Source of the DNA: Streptomyces sp. SUK 48
GTDB lineage: Bacteria > Actinomycetota > Actinomycetes > Streptomycetales > Streptomycetaceae
Length of the DNA: 64,000 nucleotides
Reading direction: 5' to 3'
NCBI RefSeq assembly: GCF_009650765.1
Contig: NZ_CP045740.1
Span: forward strand, 3,944,001-4,008,000
Shown: one piece after another, positions 30,684 through 34,280 of the stretch
Layout: every line of letters starts with the position of its first letter
Numbering within the stretch: the first letter of the stretch is position 1
Notes under the pieces: generated by a model
What the model was told of the DNA's origin: nothing
Seen by the model: the letters and a program-made list of their open reading frames with translations, nothing else
The model's database searches: none
Made by a program: the position numbers and the translations under genes

Positions 30684-31097
30684 ATGGCGAACCACTCCGT
30701 GGATCCGGGTTCCCCGGACGACGCGTATCTCGGCTTCTGGCGGGAGCGGCATCTGTGCACCCTGACGACCATCCGCCCGGACGGCACCCCGCACGTCGTG
30801 CCGGTCGGGGTGACGTACGACCCCGGGGCGCGCCTTGCCCGGGTGATCTGCAACGGGGCCAGCGCGAAGGCGGCCTACGTCCGCGCCGCCGGCCCGGACG
30901 GCGCCCTCGCCGCCGTCTGCCAGGTCGACGGGCGCCGCTGGGCCACCCTGGAGGGGCGGGCGCGCGTGTCCGCGGACCCGGAGCGGGTCAGGGAGGCGGA
31001 GCGCCGCTACGCCGAGCGCTACACGCGCGAGCCCGCGCCGAACCCGGCCCGCGTGGTGATCGAGATCTCGCTGGAGAGGGCGCTGGGGCGGGGGTGA
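30684..31097 (+). CDS. PPOX-class flavin/F420-dependent oxidoreductase-like protein
   Basis: 137 residues, split beta-barrel of the pyridoxamine-phosphate-oxidase-like class. Typical opening 'LGFWRERHLCTLTTIRPDGTPHVVPVGVTYD' followed by 'NGASAKAAYVRA' and 'GRRWATLEGRARVSADPERVREAERRYAERY'. Family members reduce F420-linked or flavin-linked substrates; the actual reaction is unknown. ATG 30684 is 39 bp from the HAIR element, so heat-shock control is possible. Ends before a strong shared terminator. Confidence 0.88.
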   Translation: MANHSVDPGSPDDAYLGFWRERHLCTLTTIRPDGTPHVVPVGVTYDPGARLARVICNGASAKAAYVRAAGPDGALAAVCQVDGRRWATLEGRARVSADPERVREAERRYAERYTREPAPNPARVVIEISLERALGRG

Positions 31098-31195: not shown

Positions 31196-31234
31196 CAGCG
31201 GCGTCACCGTGTTCAGGTCACGGTGACGCCGCTG
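31196..31234. terminator. Bidirectional terminator, perfect 16-bp stem
   Basis: CAGCGGCGTCACCGTG and CACGGTGACGCCGCTG flank a seven-base loop TTCAGGT. It separates the PPOX gene (plus) from the peptide/Rieske-like operon (minus), ending both. Confidence 0.85.
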
Positions 31235-31278: not shown

Positions 31279-31614
31279 TCAGGCACTGCGGGGGGTGGCC
31301 GAGATGGTTCTCAGGTCGGACTCCACCGGCTCGGTGAGCCGGTGATCCCGCTGGTCCAGGTTCACAAAGATCATTCCGTACCGTATGGCACACCGCACCG
31401 GCTGGGGCGCCCCGCGCGGCTTGCGCAGGCACCGGTAGGCCCGGACGTCCTCCTCGTCGTCGCGCGTGACGACGACCGGCTCACCGAAGACGGTCACCAT
31501 CAGCGAGTCCCCGGGGTGGGGAATCGCGGTCACCAGATCGATGAAGTGCCAGCCGGAGCGGTAGGCGGTGGCCATCTCACGGCGGAAGGAGCGGTCGTCG
31601 GGTGGCGTGGTCAC
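31279..31614 (-). CDS. Mini Rieske-like protein lacking the histidine ligands
   Basis: About 111 residues from GTG 31614. The order of blocks resembles the Rieske domain of ring-hydroxylating oxygenases: 'AIPHPGDSLMVTVFGEPVVVTRD', 'VRAYRCLRKPRGAPQ', 'CAIRYGMIFVNLD'. In true Rieske domains the cluster ligands are C-x-H and C-x-x-H; here the corresponding triplets read C-L-R and C-A-I-R, so both His are Arg and the spacing between the pairs is shortened. A normal 2Fe-2S cluster is therefore unlikely. The gene starts one base after the stop of the DTKWP-peptide gene, so the two are translationally coupled. Function unknown. Confidence 0.6.
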   Translation of the reverse strand: MTTPPDDRSFRREMATAYRSGWHFIDLVTAIPHPGDSLMVTVFGEPVVVTRDDEEDVRAYRCLRKPRGAPQPVRCAIRYGMIFVNLDQRDHRLTEPVESDLRTISATPRSA

Positions 31615-31615
31615 A

Positions 31616-31918
31616 TCAGCTCCCGGCTGCCGAAGGCCACTTGGTGTCCGTCGGCCACGCGGCGTCCGCGGCCACGACGTTCGTCCCGCCGCCCGTCGCT
31701 GCCGCCGAGGGCCACTTGGTGTCCGTGGGCCACTTCGTGTCCGCTCGCACCGAGCTGCTCGCGTCGAGCGTCGCCACCGAGGGCCACTTCGTGTCTGCGC
31801 GCAGATCACTCTTCGCACCGAAGGGGCCACTCAGCACGCCAAGGGCCACAACGGCGGAGAAGGTGGCGACCAGCCCCGAGCGAATCATCTTCTTGCCCAT
31901 GGTCGACTTCGTCCTCAC
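31616..31918 (-). CDS. Secreted precursor peptide with DTKWP repeats
   Basis: About 100 residues. A basic n-region ('RTKSTMGKKMIR') and hydrophobic core ('SGLVATFSAVVALGVLSG') form a signal peptide; the remaining ~60 residues hold four exact DTKWP units and one degenerate unit (DAAWP), separated by Ser/Ala/Gly/Thr-rich spacers. GTG 31918 is chosen because AGGGGA is seven bases upstream; ATG 31900 is an alternative that shortens the n-region. The mature part has no Cys. It heads an operon with the Rieske-like gene and is divergent from a LuxR-type regulator. Not a family I know; a multicopy signal or modified peptide is one reading, a cell-surface repeat protein another. Confidence 0.75.
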   Translation of the reverse strand: MRTKSTMGKKMIRSGLVATFSAVVALGVLSGPFGAKSDLRADTKWPSVATLDASSSVRADTKWPTDTKWPSAAATGGGTNVVAADAAWPTDTKWPSAAGS

Positions 31919-31966: not shown

Positions 31967-31998
31967 GCACATCATGACCACACAATCAGTGCATCATG
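31967..31998. promoter_or_regulatory. Direct repeats in the divergent peptide/regulator promoter region
   Basis: GCACATCATG (31967-31976) and GTGCATCATG (31989-31998) are nearly identical and 22 bp apart, about two helical turns, in the 114-bp gap between the DTKWP gene and the LuxR-type regulator. A plausible binding site for that regulator. Confidence 0.4.
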
Positions 31999-32032
31999 TT
32001 CCTGCATGTTCAGGACCCTGGGGGGTGGAGAT

Positions 32033-33016
32033 TTGACTACAAATCGGCACAATACGGTACATCCCCATGCGGTTACCGAACTGTGCGAGGAAGGGGGCCG
32101 ACTTTACGCCACCGCCCTGCGCACCGGACGTGTCTCCCGTTCCGACGCGGCATCGGCTCCCTGCCTGATGGAGTTCGCCCTGCTCCACCCGGATCCGGAC
32201 GATCCCGACTGGCTGCGCCCGGTGCCCCCGGCCGTGGCGCTGGCCCAGCGGCTCTCGCCGCTCGAACGCGAGATAGCAGATCGCCGGCGCTGGGCCGTCG
32301 AACTCTCCGACATCTTCGAGCCGTTTCTCGCGCTGAGCACGCAGACGGCCTCCGTGACCGACTCGATCACCGTCCTGGAGGGCAGCGACCGCATCAACGC
32401 CGCGCTCGACCTGGCCACCACCGAATGCCGTTCCTCGGTTCTCACCGTACAGCCGAGCAACCACTTCACCGAGCGCAACGTGCGCCAGGGCCTGGAGCGC
32501 GACACCGCCCTGGTGGAACGGGGCGTGCACATCCGCACCCTGTACCAGCACACGGTCCGCTACAACCTCAAGCAGATCGGCTACGTCGCCCAGCTCACCA
32601 GCGGCAAGGTGGAGTACCGCACCATCGACGAACTGGTCGAACGGCTCATCATCTGCGACGAGTCGGTCGCGTTCATCCCCACCCGCGACGACCAGCAGGT
32701 CGCCCTGGAGCTGCGCAACCCCGGGCTCATCCGCTACCTCATCAAGGTCTTCGAGTTCATGTGGAACCGCGCGGTCCCGCTGACCGCGGGCGCCCCGTAC
32801 GAGACCGCGCCCGACGGCATCACCGAGATCCAGCACTCCATCGCCAAGCTCCTGGTGGAGGGTCATGTGGACGAGGCCATCGCGCGCCGGCTCGGGATGA
32901 ACGTCCGTACCTGCCGCGCCCACATCGCCAAGCTGGCGCAGGTGCTCGGCAGCGGCAGCCGGGCGCAACTGGGCTTCCTCATCGCCCAGTCCGGCATGCT
33001 GGACCGGGACCTCTGA
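32033..33016 (+). CDS. LuxR-type HTH regulator (copy 1), next to the DTKWP peptide gene
   Basis: About 327 residues. N-terminal segment 'VTELCEEGGRLYATALRTGRVSRSD' and 'CLMEFALLHPDPDD', a central TrmB/PLD-like sensor region ('LEGSDRINAALDLATTECRSSVLTVQPS', 'TIDELVERLIICDESVAFIP') and a C-terminal LuxR-type helix-turn-helix ('AKLLVEGHVDEAIARRLGMNVRTCRAHIAKLAQVLG'). The TTG at 32033 is favoured because it aligns the N-terminus with the paralogue at 33264-34280. Divergent from the peptide operon and probably its regulator. Confidence 0.85.
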   Translation: MTTNRHNTVHPHAVTELCEEGGRLYATALRTGRVSRSDAASAPCLMEFALLHPDPDDPDWLRPVPPAVALAQRLSPLEREIADRRRWAVELSDIFEPFLALSTQTASVTDSITVLEGSDRINAALDLATTECRSSVLTVQPSNHFTERNVRQGLERDTALVERGVHIRTLYQHTVRYNLKQIGYVAQLTSGKVEYRTIDELVERLIICDESVAFIPTRDDQQVALELRNPGLIRYLIKVFEFMWNRAVPLTAGAPYETAPDGITEIQHSIAKLLVEGHVDEAIARRLGMNVRTCRAHIAKLAQVLGSGSRAQLGFLIAQSGMLDRDL

Positions 33017-33020
33017 ACCG

Positions 33021-33269
33021 ATGACCGCGGGGGAACCGCACGCGCAACACGGCGTCGAGGAGCTGTGCGCGCGGGGCCGCGCGGCGGACGAACGCGCCCT
33101 GCGCGCGGGGCGGTTCAACGCCGCCGCCGCCCACGGCGCGCCCTGCCCGGAGCGGTTGGGACTGCTCCAGCCGACCGCCGCCCTCGGGGGCGTCGGCCGG
33201 GCCCGACCGGGCTGTCTCATCGGGCGGTCGGACGTCCTGCGCCGGGCGGACGGGGCGCCGGGCTCATAA
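33021..33269 (+). CDS. Truncated paralogue of the LuxR-type regulators (N-terminal piece only)
   Basis: 82 residues starting four bases after regulator copy 1. 'GVEELCARGRAADERALRAGRFNA', 'PCPERLGLLQP' follows the same pattern as the N-termini of the two full regulators ('ELCEEG...ALRTGRV...PCLMEFALLHP'). The sensor and DNA-binding parts are missing. Its last six bases overlap the 3' end of the convergent regulator. Either a decayed gene copy or a small interfering partner; base composition still looks coding. Confidence 0.55.
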   Translation: MTAGEPHAQHGVEELCARGRAADERALRAGRFNAAAAHGAPCPERLGLLQPTAALGGVGRARPGCLIGRSDVLRRADGAPGS

Positions 33270-34280
33270 CGAGGCGTCCCGGGCGGCCGGCAGCCCCCTG
33301 CCGCTGCCGTCCAGGCCCGCCTGGGCGATGCGCACCCCGAGCTGGGTACGGCTGGCCGCGCCCAGGGTCTCCGAGAGGCGGGCGATGTGCGCGCGGCAGG
33401 TCCGCACGCTGATGCCGAGCCGCTCGGCGATCACCGCGTCCTGGTGGCCCTCGGCGAGCAGCGCCGCGATGGACTGCTCGCGGTGCGAGATGCCCTCGAT
33501 GCCGGTGTCCGGCAGCGGCGCGGTGAGCGGGATGGCGAGGCGCCACAGCCGCTCGAAGACGGTCACCAGGTACTCCACCAGCGCCGGGTGGCGCAGTTCC
33601 AGGGCCACGGTGCGGTCGGCGTTCGCCGGGATGAAGGCCACCGTGCGGTCGAAGAGGATGAGCCGGTCGATGACCTCGTCCAGGGTGCGGGCCTCCACCG
33701 TGTCGCCCATCAGCTCCAGGTAGTTGAGCAACCCCTGGCCGTGCCGGGCCACATGCGTGTACAGGTCCCGCATGCGCACGCCCCGCCCGCGCAGCGCCAG
33801 CGCCCGGTGCAGGCCCTCGGTCAGCTCGGCCTCGCGCCGGATGCCGCCCGGCTGCACGGTGAGCACCTCGGTGGTGCACGCCTCGGTCGCCTCGTCCATC
33901 GCGGCCTGGATCCGGGACAGCCCGTCCAGCACCCGTACCGCGCTGCCCCCGGCCGGTGCCGCGAGCGCCTGCAAGCGCCCGAGGCCGGCGTACCACTCGA
34001 AGGCGGCCACCGCCGAGCCCACCCGGCGCTGGCTCTCACTGACCTCGTCGTGGACCCCGCGCAGCAGCCGGGTCATGACCTCCTGCGGGGAGGTGGGGAC
34101 CAGCCAGTCCATGTCGTCGGGGTCCGGGTGCAGCAGGGCCAGTTCCAGCAGGCAGGGCACCGCCTCCGCCTCGACGCGGGGCACCCGGCCCCGGCGCACC
34201 GCCCGTGAGTAGACGCGGTCCCCGGCCTCGCACAGCCGGTCGGCACCGTGGGGATGCTGCTCCGCCCTCCGCCCGGCCAT
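33264..34280 (-). CDS. LuxR-type HTH regulator (copy 2)
   Basis: About 338 residues and colinear with copy 1: 'GADRLCEAGDRVYSRAVRRGRVPRVE', 'CLLELALLHPDPDDMDWLVP', 'LDGLSRIQAAMDEATEACTTEVLTVQP', 'TLDEVIDRLILFDRTVAFIPA' and C-terminal 'AALLAEGHQDAVIAERLGISVRTCRAHIARLSETLG'. ATG 34280 matches the start of copy 1. The final sense codon is TTA (TCG TTA TGA), a codon read only by the bldA tRNA in Streptomyces, so full-length product may depend on development. Convergent with copy 1 and the truncated copy. Confidence 0.87.
   Translation of the reverse strand: MAGRRAEQHPHGADRLCEAGDRVYSRAVRRGRVPRVEAEAVPCLLELALLHPDPDDMDWLVPTSPQEVMTRLLRGVHDEVSESQRRVGSAVAAFEWYAGLGRLQALAAPAGGSAVRVLDGLSRIQAAMDEATEACTTEVLTVQPGGIRREAELTEGLHRALALRGRGVRMRDLYTHVARHGQGLLNYLELMGDTVEARTLDEVIDRLILFDRTVAFIPANADRTVALELRHPALVEYLVTVFERLWRLAIPLTAPLPDTGIEGISHREQSIAALLAEGHQDAVIAERLGISVRTCRAHIARLSETLGAASRTQLGVRIAQAGLDGSGRGLPAARDASL

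Follow-up and report, generated by a model that had tools for sequence, protein, structure and literature searches.

Streptomyces is the source of many medicines, signals of the gamma-butyrolactone type are known from the genus, and an extracellular oligopeptide signal is thought to enter the cell through BldK. In fungi, the alpha-factor is made from a secreted precursor that holds several copies of one short signal. The RRNPP systems of Firmicutes (Rap, Rgg, NprR, PlcR, PrgX) pair a short, ribosomally made peptide with a cytoplasmic transcription factor encoded beside it, and they fall into specificity types. Secretion, maturation and re-import of RRNPP peptides are described in PMC7564271. 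The locus of Streptomyces sp. SUK 48 analysed here resembles these systems in that a signal-bearing short peptide gene adjoins the gene for a predicted receptor, the divergently encoded regulator LuxR1 (189 of 190 loci, the exception being a contig fragment), and secretion, maturation and re-import would be shared as well. Unlike the RRNPP receptors, LuxR1 lacks a TPR-repeat receptor domain and consists of a TrmB/phospholipase-D-like sensor, including the TrmB C-terminal (PLD-like) domain, and a C-terminal HTH of the LuxR type; moreover, the system is actinobacterial, its precursors contain D-x-x-W repeats and a Rieske-like gene forms part of the operon. The fungal alpha-factor is similar in carrying several copies of one short signal in its precursor, but here the system is bacterial, the DxxW units have by eye no flanking dibasic sites and the receptor is predicted to be intracellular. 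As to the archaeal TrmB and TrmBL2 proteins, 2f5t is titled a sugar-binding domain, whereas the ligand of LuxR1 is predicted to be a peptide and its HTH is C-terminal and of the LuxR type. From the LuxR family represented by SCO3665 and SCO3666, LuxR1 differs in staying below the Pfam GerE cut-off (17.8 versus 23.5 bits). A search of the open-licence literature, preprints left aside, returned no description of this peptide-receptor system. We consider it highly probable, judging from the covariation presented below, that a short peptide signal is produced from the precursor and that LuxR1 is the dedicated receptor of this signal, in the manner of a peptide pheromone system.

The window, i.e. 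the whole stretch of 64,000 nucleotides that was analysed, encodes the peptide precursor on the minus strand (31616..31900; 94 aa), with an ATG at 31900 and a stop codon that ends at 31616. As an earlier note on this DNA had claimed, the translation contains four exact DTKWP units and one variant (DAAWP), no Cys and a signal-type N-terminus, which read by eye as a basic n-region followed by a hydrophobic stretch, as in exported proteins; a textbook signal peptidase site was not seen by eye in this precursor. The same note was right in placing the gene for a 111-residue Rieske-like protein (31279..31614, minus strand, GTG start at 31614) one base after the precursor stop, as only position 31615 lies between the TGA and the GTG, and in describing a LuxR-type regulator, LuxR1 (32033..33016, plus strand), as divergent from this pair. 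LuxR1 starts with a TTG at 32033, with an alternative ATG at 32006. Between precursor and LuxR1 lies an imperfect dyad, GTTCCTGCATGTTCAGGAC (31998..32016, no strand), a candidate operator that might be the binding site of LuxR1; most of the block is kept in 90% or more of the 159 regions aligned, although its overlap with the alternative LuxR1 start means that a coding constraint is possible. The pair had been said to end at a perfect terminator, of which the perfect inverted repeat stands (31196..31234, no strand, with 16-bp arms at 31196-31211 and 31219-31234 and a 7-base loop) and the strong T-run does not, none following the repeat on the transcribed strand; the repeat is a candidate for the transcription end of the precursor/Rieske-like pair. 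A second LuxR-type paralogue, lux2 (33264..34271, minus strand), is convergent with LuxR1 and highly conserved. On the other side, past the Rieske-like gene, a gene for a PPOX/F420-type oxidoreductase (30684-31097, plus strand) lies between the Rieske-like gene and clpB, which is situated beyond it and was named from its sequence. At the equivalent place in several relatives the PPOX/F420-type gene was not detected.

When one genome per species was searched with the Rieske-like protein, at least 507 related stretches were confirmed; the best 80 of these matches were 89-99% identical and all were titled Streptomyces, except for one 'Actinobacteria bacterium'. In the set of 190 loci, which includes the window and in which some species are present more than once, a precursor of the same build directly preceded the Rieske-like gene in 188 loci as parsed, so that the arrangement in the window is not due to chance, and the linkage of both the Rieske-like and the LuxR-type gene to the precursor, as the earlier note had it, is conserved across Streptomyces. 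Of the two loci without a parsed precursor, L167 has five EPSW units on reading and L031 is a contig fragment. In the latter, what remains in front of the Rieske-like gene is the last DTSWP unit alone, and on the LuxR1 side the sequence runs out in a different reading frame, which by eye resembles a sigma-factor gene; the same strain has an intact locus (L027), and L031 possibly reflects an assembly or recombination break.

DTKWP itself was rejected as a conserved unit. The earlier note had regarded a lack of DTKWP conservation among homologues as speaking against its own proposal, and for that unit this is what was found: residues outside the conserved frame switch between species, in step with LuxR1. 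What is kept among orthologues is a frame that opens with an acidic residue or Asn, followed by two variable positions, Trp and one more variable position ([D/E/N]-x-x-W), with units such as DTKWP, DSTWV, DVGWG, EISWG, DPGWG, DLGWD or DTRWD. Of 493 Trp residues in the mature parts of 170 distinct precursors, 487 have D, E or N at W-3. The precursors hold 1-20 copies of a unit whose type is lineage-specific, and the three-residue core is common to 805 of 858 pairs of copies within a precursor, while the main core is common to 621 of 14,365 pairs between precursors. There are 38 core types, and 117 of the 130 multi-copy precursors use one core only. The precursor of L190 (Streptomyces, G135) has 20 Trp units, nearly all of them DTKWP, i.e. 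the unit of the window in a far amplified form. Such homogeneity could in principle arise by DNA slippage in an ordinary cell-wall or secreted low-complexity protein, its link to LuxR1 being hitch-hiking; adjacent genes can be exchanged together and some copies, as in L190, look like recent duplicates. However, copies with identical cores differ by synonymous codons in 561 of 855 pairs (redundant locus set), which indicates that selection, and not recent duplication alone, keeps the copies alike, and across the 170 precursors the linkers vary while W-3 and W stay conserved. The C-terminus lies one residue past the last Trp in 53 of the 170 precursors (21 of 40 among the single-copy ones), and in 294 of 493 cases Gly or Ala directly precedes the unit, which together suggest a mature unit of about five residues.

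Overall divergence was compared for the neighbouring genes. Over 79-80 loci the median identity to the window amounted to 74% for LuxR1, 91% for ClpB, 91% for lux2 and 92% for the Rieske-like protein; the PPOX-type gene is equally divergent (74%, 73 loci), so that the speed of LuxR1 alone says little. Partial Mantel tests were run on 73 loci (of 81 loci, four had been removed in advance, and of the 77 left these 73 contained every one of the four genes), controlling for the DNA distances of ClpB, the Rieske-like gene and lux2. LuxR1 distance was associated with motif difference (r = 0.476, p = 0.0005), p-values being possibly optimistic for related sequences, and the control genes gave -0.11 for lux2 and a weak 0.10 for ClpB (p 0.02). 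For the Rieske-like protein, which the earlier note had taken as the coupled partner, r was -0.04, and related DxxW loci exist without it, so this part of the proposal is not upheld; for hitch-hiking, the lack of motif association in an equally adjacent gene is an unfavourable result. By its tracking of the motif, the coupled partner of the peptide is the divergent regulator LuxR1. Rejected as receptor was lux2: its overall distance does not follow the peptide, and neither does the residue corresponding to LuxR1 site 136, which is Val in 95 of 95 cases whatever the peptide (redundant set).

Each variable LuxR1 site was then compared with each peptide position in 167 non-redundant loci of the 190. 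Left out were repeats, four loci with incomplete or ambiguous parsing (L051, L073, L136, L183) and the two without a parsed motif (L031, L167). One pair stood out, site 136 and peptide position W-2, with a partial r of 0.80 and 0.29 for the next best. Ser at W-2 goes with Met136 in 83 of 83 loci and Thr with Val136 (46) or Leu136 (4) in 50 of 50; similarly, Pro is paired with Leu136 (14/14), Val with Val136 (8/8), Leu with Val136 or Ile136 (7/7) and Ile with Val136 (5/5). On a later check, the loci left out other than the fragment L031, among them five that are not repeats, all agreed with the same rule. In the window, the codon for residue 136 (numbered from the TTG at 32033) is the GTT at 32438..32440 on the plus strand, and its Val matches the Thr at W-2 of the peptide. 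Volume compensation would give this pattern, the smallest peptide residue being combined with the largest receptor side chain. Site 157, which changed only a few times, is Asp in 133 of 133 Ser/Thr cases and in 0 of 34 others, and a hydrogen bond from Asp157 to the Ser/Thr hydroxyl would fit.

In order to allow for shared ancestry, independent contrasts were counted. On a tree of ClpB plus Rieske sequences (160 loci; seven of the 167 had too little clpB or Rieske sequence), W-2 changed 47 times and site 136 differed in 43 of 45 independent contrasting pairs, the top value among 196 variable sites. Since LuxR1 and precursor could be exchanged together, the contrasts were repeated on LuxR1's own codon tree, built with the candidate sites removed. 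There, 26 changes at W-2 gave 24 pairs, and site 136 differed in 22 of them, again first of 196 with 19 for the next best. All 21 Ser/Thr contrasts on this tree had the same direction (Ser-Met, Thr-Val/Leu), with the site removed from the tree, which speaks against hitch-hiking. The residue pair 136/W-2 thus behaves in the alignments like a recognition code that has re-evolved repeatedly. Other positions gave no such picture. Site 221 paired with W+1 in the raw table (Pro-Gln in 51 of 52 cases), yet it was rejected as a specificity site because it differed in no more than 5 of 27 contrasts when LuxR1's own tree was used; residues 149 and 188, strong for W+1 in raw tables, were likewise unsupported there. 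For W-1, the most variable position, no single explanatory LuxR1 site was found in the 167 loci and on this tree.

The rule was applied to a held-out sample of 53 further loci, of which 33 had an unused LuxR1, 19 were already in the set and one was a duplicate. Residue 136 was predicted correctly in 32 of 33 cases as run and in 29 of 29 for Ser/Thr. The single miss, L246, arose because a Trp of the signal region had been extracted; the actual unit, NTSWP, agrees with Val136 and brings the count to 33 of 33. Each held-out receptor shares 82-99% identity with its closest counterpart in the earlier set (below 90% in 12 of 33), so that the rule was tested here within the genus and not on distant relatives.

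More distant material came from paralogues. Besides lux2, the genome of the window encodes four LuxR1 relatives elsewhere, one of them partial. At one of these loci (L206, the same as L202, at about 4.156 Mb), a signal-like ORF ending in GDSSWGG is divergent from the LuxR1 paralogue. A home-made filter for signal-like DxxW ORFs within about 1.5 kb of a regulator was used to search paralogue loci. The pattern D[STN]xWG occurred in the last 20 residues of 12 of 51 signal-like ORFs, in 10 of 17 loci (L206-L222), and in 0 of 207 ORFs from three control sets (356 kb), a comparison for which the pattern was chosen after the hits and in which the largest control set consists of 80 copies of one homologous region. 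An earlier, looser pattern, [DEN]xxW, gave 17 of 51 versus 3 of 207 in the controls, some of the 17 being pieces of transporter genes. These ORFs lie on either side and either strand of the regulator, divergence not being constant. Two further pairs were L273 (G904, from another family of the phylum), with a divergent ORF ending in DTGWD, and L255 (G010, a Streptomyces without a strong Rieske-like match), with a convergent ORF ending in DDTGWD.

The regulators of these 12 distant pairs are 31-40% identical to LuxR1. Asp157 is present in 12 of 12, and the 136 rule holds in 10 of 12, with Ser/Met136 in L209, L212, L213, L214, L217, L218 and L221 and Thr/Val136 in L208, L211 and L255; the exceptions are L273, where Thr meets Ala, and L206 in the genome of the window, where Ser meets Leu. 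Since close relatives occur among the ten fitting pairs, the number of independent cases is below ten. A second ORF, with Asn at W-2, is found in L218. Together, the held-out prediction and the recurrence of the rule in distant paralogues leave the view of an ordinary low-complexity protein, already disfavoured, as a very improbable one. A search of the phylum with the LuxR1 profile gave strong relatives in ten of 296 genomes; nine of these are Streptomyces, and the evidence for a spread beyond the genus therefore comes from a single genome (G904). In L207, L210, L215, L216, L219, L220 and L222, no DxxW ORF was found within about 1.5 kb, nor with a looser filter. Their regulators have Val or Met at the 136 position, and these seven may be orphan receptors or may have their peptides encoded further off. 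The looser filter applied to L201, L203, L204, L267-L271 and an 88 kb control gave no ORF. Of six ORFs that a further search had yielded, three (in L268 and L270) were set aside as parts of other genes by eye and one, in L274, belongs to the Rieske-linked locus itself, which leaves those of L273 and L255.

The earlier note had read the ligand pairs of the Rieske-like protein in the window as C-L-R and C-A-I-R in place of CxH and CxxH, and this reading was confirmed. The pattern CxR...CxxR is present in 155 of 156 distinct Rieske-like sequences, the remaining one having lost the first Cys; the loss of the His ligands is real and fixed. Compared with NirD, Rieske ferredoxins and alpha subunits of Rieske oxygenases, the His ligands are thus replaced by Arg while Cys is kept, and the protein is small, stand-alone and, in this analysis, found only in Streptomyces; no close relative was found in 51 genomes of other genera of Streptomycetaceae. 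The 111-aa protein has a Rieske fold according to the fold test; its score on the Pfam Rieske family is 14.5 bits, the cut-off being 20.3. Repeats that share a conserved Trp, together with the fixed, close coupling of a Rieske-fold gene, would also fit a multi-core RiPP. In that case each DxxW unit would be a core, the Rieske-like protein would serve as modifying enzyme or partner enzyme, and the role of LuxR1 would be confined to sensing the product and regulating the pathway. Against this, the precursor N-terminus resembles an export signal, and no tailoring enzyme, protease or exporter was recognised among the neighbours identified (PPOX-type gene, clpB, regulators). The only candidate for a modifying enzyme adjacent to the precursor is the Rieske-like protein, which has no ligands for a cluster and does not accompany all related DxxW pairs, its gene not having been found at the 12 distant DxxW/regulator loci. 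We therefore regard the RiPP reading as quite improbable; if its product were the LuxR1 ligand, it would merge with the reading as a signal, the peptide then being modified. For the Rieske-like protein itself, a role in maturation or handling of the peptide is presumed.

According to the proposed mechanism, the precursor would be exported through its N-terminal signal and cut into units D-x-x-W-x of about five residues, DTKWP in the case of the window. The released units would be re-imported, probably by an oligopeptide importer, and would bind the TrmB/phospholipase-D-like sensor domain of LuxR1; peptide-bound LuxR1 would then change its DNA binding at targets that probably include the shared promoter region. 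The notion of an exported, processed peptide signal, put forward in the earlier note, is well supported, with secretion and processing themselves predicted from sequence, and direct binding of the peptide would make LuxR1 a receptor of a new class. Residue covariation requires direct binding only, and it would equally be expected if the DxxW units stayed on a membrane-tethered or intracellular antagonist that sequesters LuxR1, such that the cell regulates itself without a diffusible signal; single-copy precursors whose last residues are the unit would suit a tether. However, a basic N-terminus followed by a hydrophobic stretch predicts, by the positive-inside rule, an extracellular C-terminus, and amplification to 20 Trp units, as in L190, suits the release of many short units better than tethering. 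An antagonist of this kind is therefore unlikely, though it is the alternative to which we give most weight, and we favour the reading of a released peptide signal.

A link to a known phenotype is provided by the genome G097. Its Rieske-like protein matches that of a Streptomyces violaceoruber record exactly, and its gene order is clpB, Rieske-like gene, precursor (ending in SDTIWS), LuxR1, a tandem LuxR paralogue and lux2. The tandem paralogue has an ATG start and exactly 327 aa, lux2 a GTG start and exactly 394 aa. Listed lengths for SCO3665 and SCO3666 of Streptomyces coelicolor are 327 and 394 aa in PMC3282765, a paper with zero occurrences of SCO3664, and SCO3661 is given as clpB in PMC2687793. 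By length and order SCO3666 matches lux2 and SCO3665 the tandem LuxR1 paralogue, and with clpB as SCO3661 the S. coelicolor orthologue of LuxR1 is most likely SCO3664, as reached by locus matching through G097. The possibility that SCO3664 is the precursor was set aside, since the ORFs of 327 and 394 aa fix SCO3665 and SCO3666. In PMC6585502, SCO3664 is called a regulator and its insertion mutants overproduce actinorhodin more than 50-fold. Taking this report and the locus matching together, loss of the likely LuxR1 orthologue strongly raises actinorhodin, and the peptide signalling system may control antibiotic production.

A wider interpretation combines these parts: D-x-x-W-x peptides would be a previously unrecognised class of linear pheromones, and intracellular LuxR receptors of the TrmB fold would read them through a switch at a single residue (136), with dozens of signalling types in the genus; they would govern antibiotic production (SCO3664/actinorhodin), paralogous pairs with the same switch would act as parallel channels, one example lying outside the genus, and the Rieske-like protein would be a new maturation or handling factor for one channel. 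For this interpretation as a whole we see an even chance. If the genus has a ribosomal peptide signal with a dedicated receptor, this would offer a handle on antibiotic regulation by synthetic peptides, a rule for predicting which strains can perceive one another's signals and a new peptide receptor fold, and the old question which extracellular oligopeptide signals control Streptomyces development would become testable. A tandem arrangement of regulators was also seen in other loci, as L195-L198 and L272 have one or two tandem LuxR paralogues between LuxR1 and lux2.
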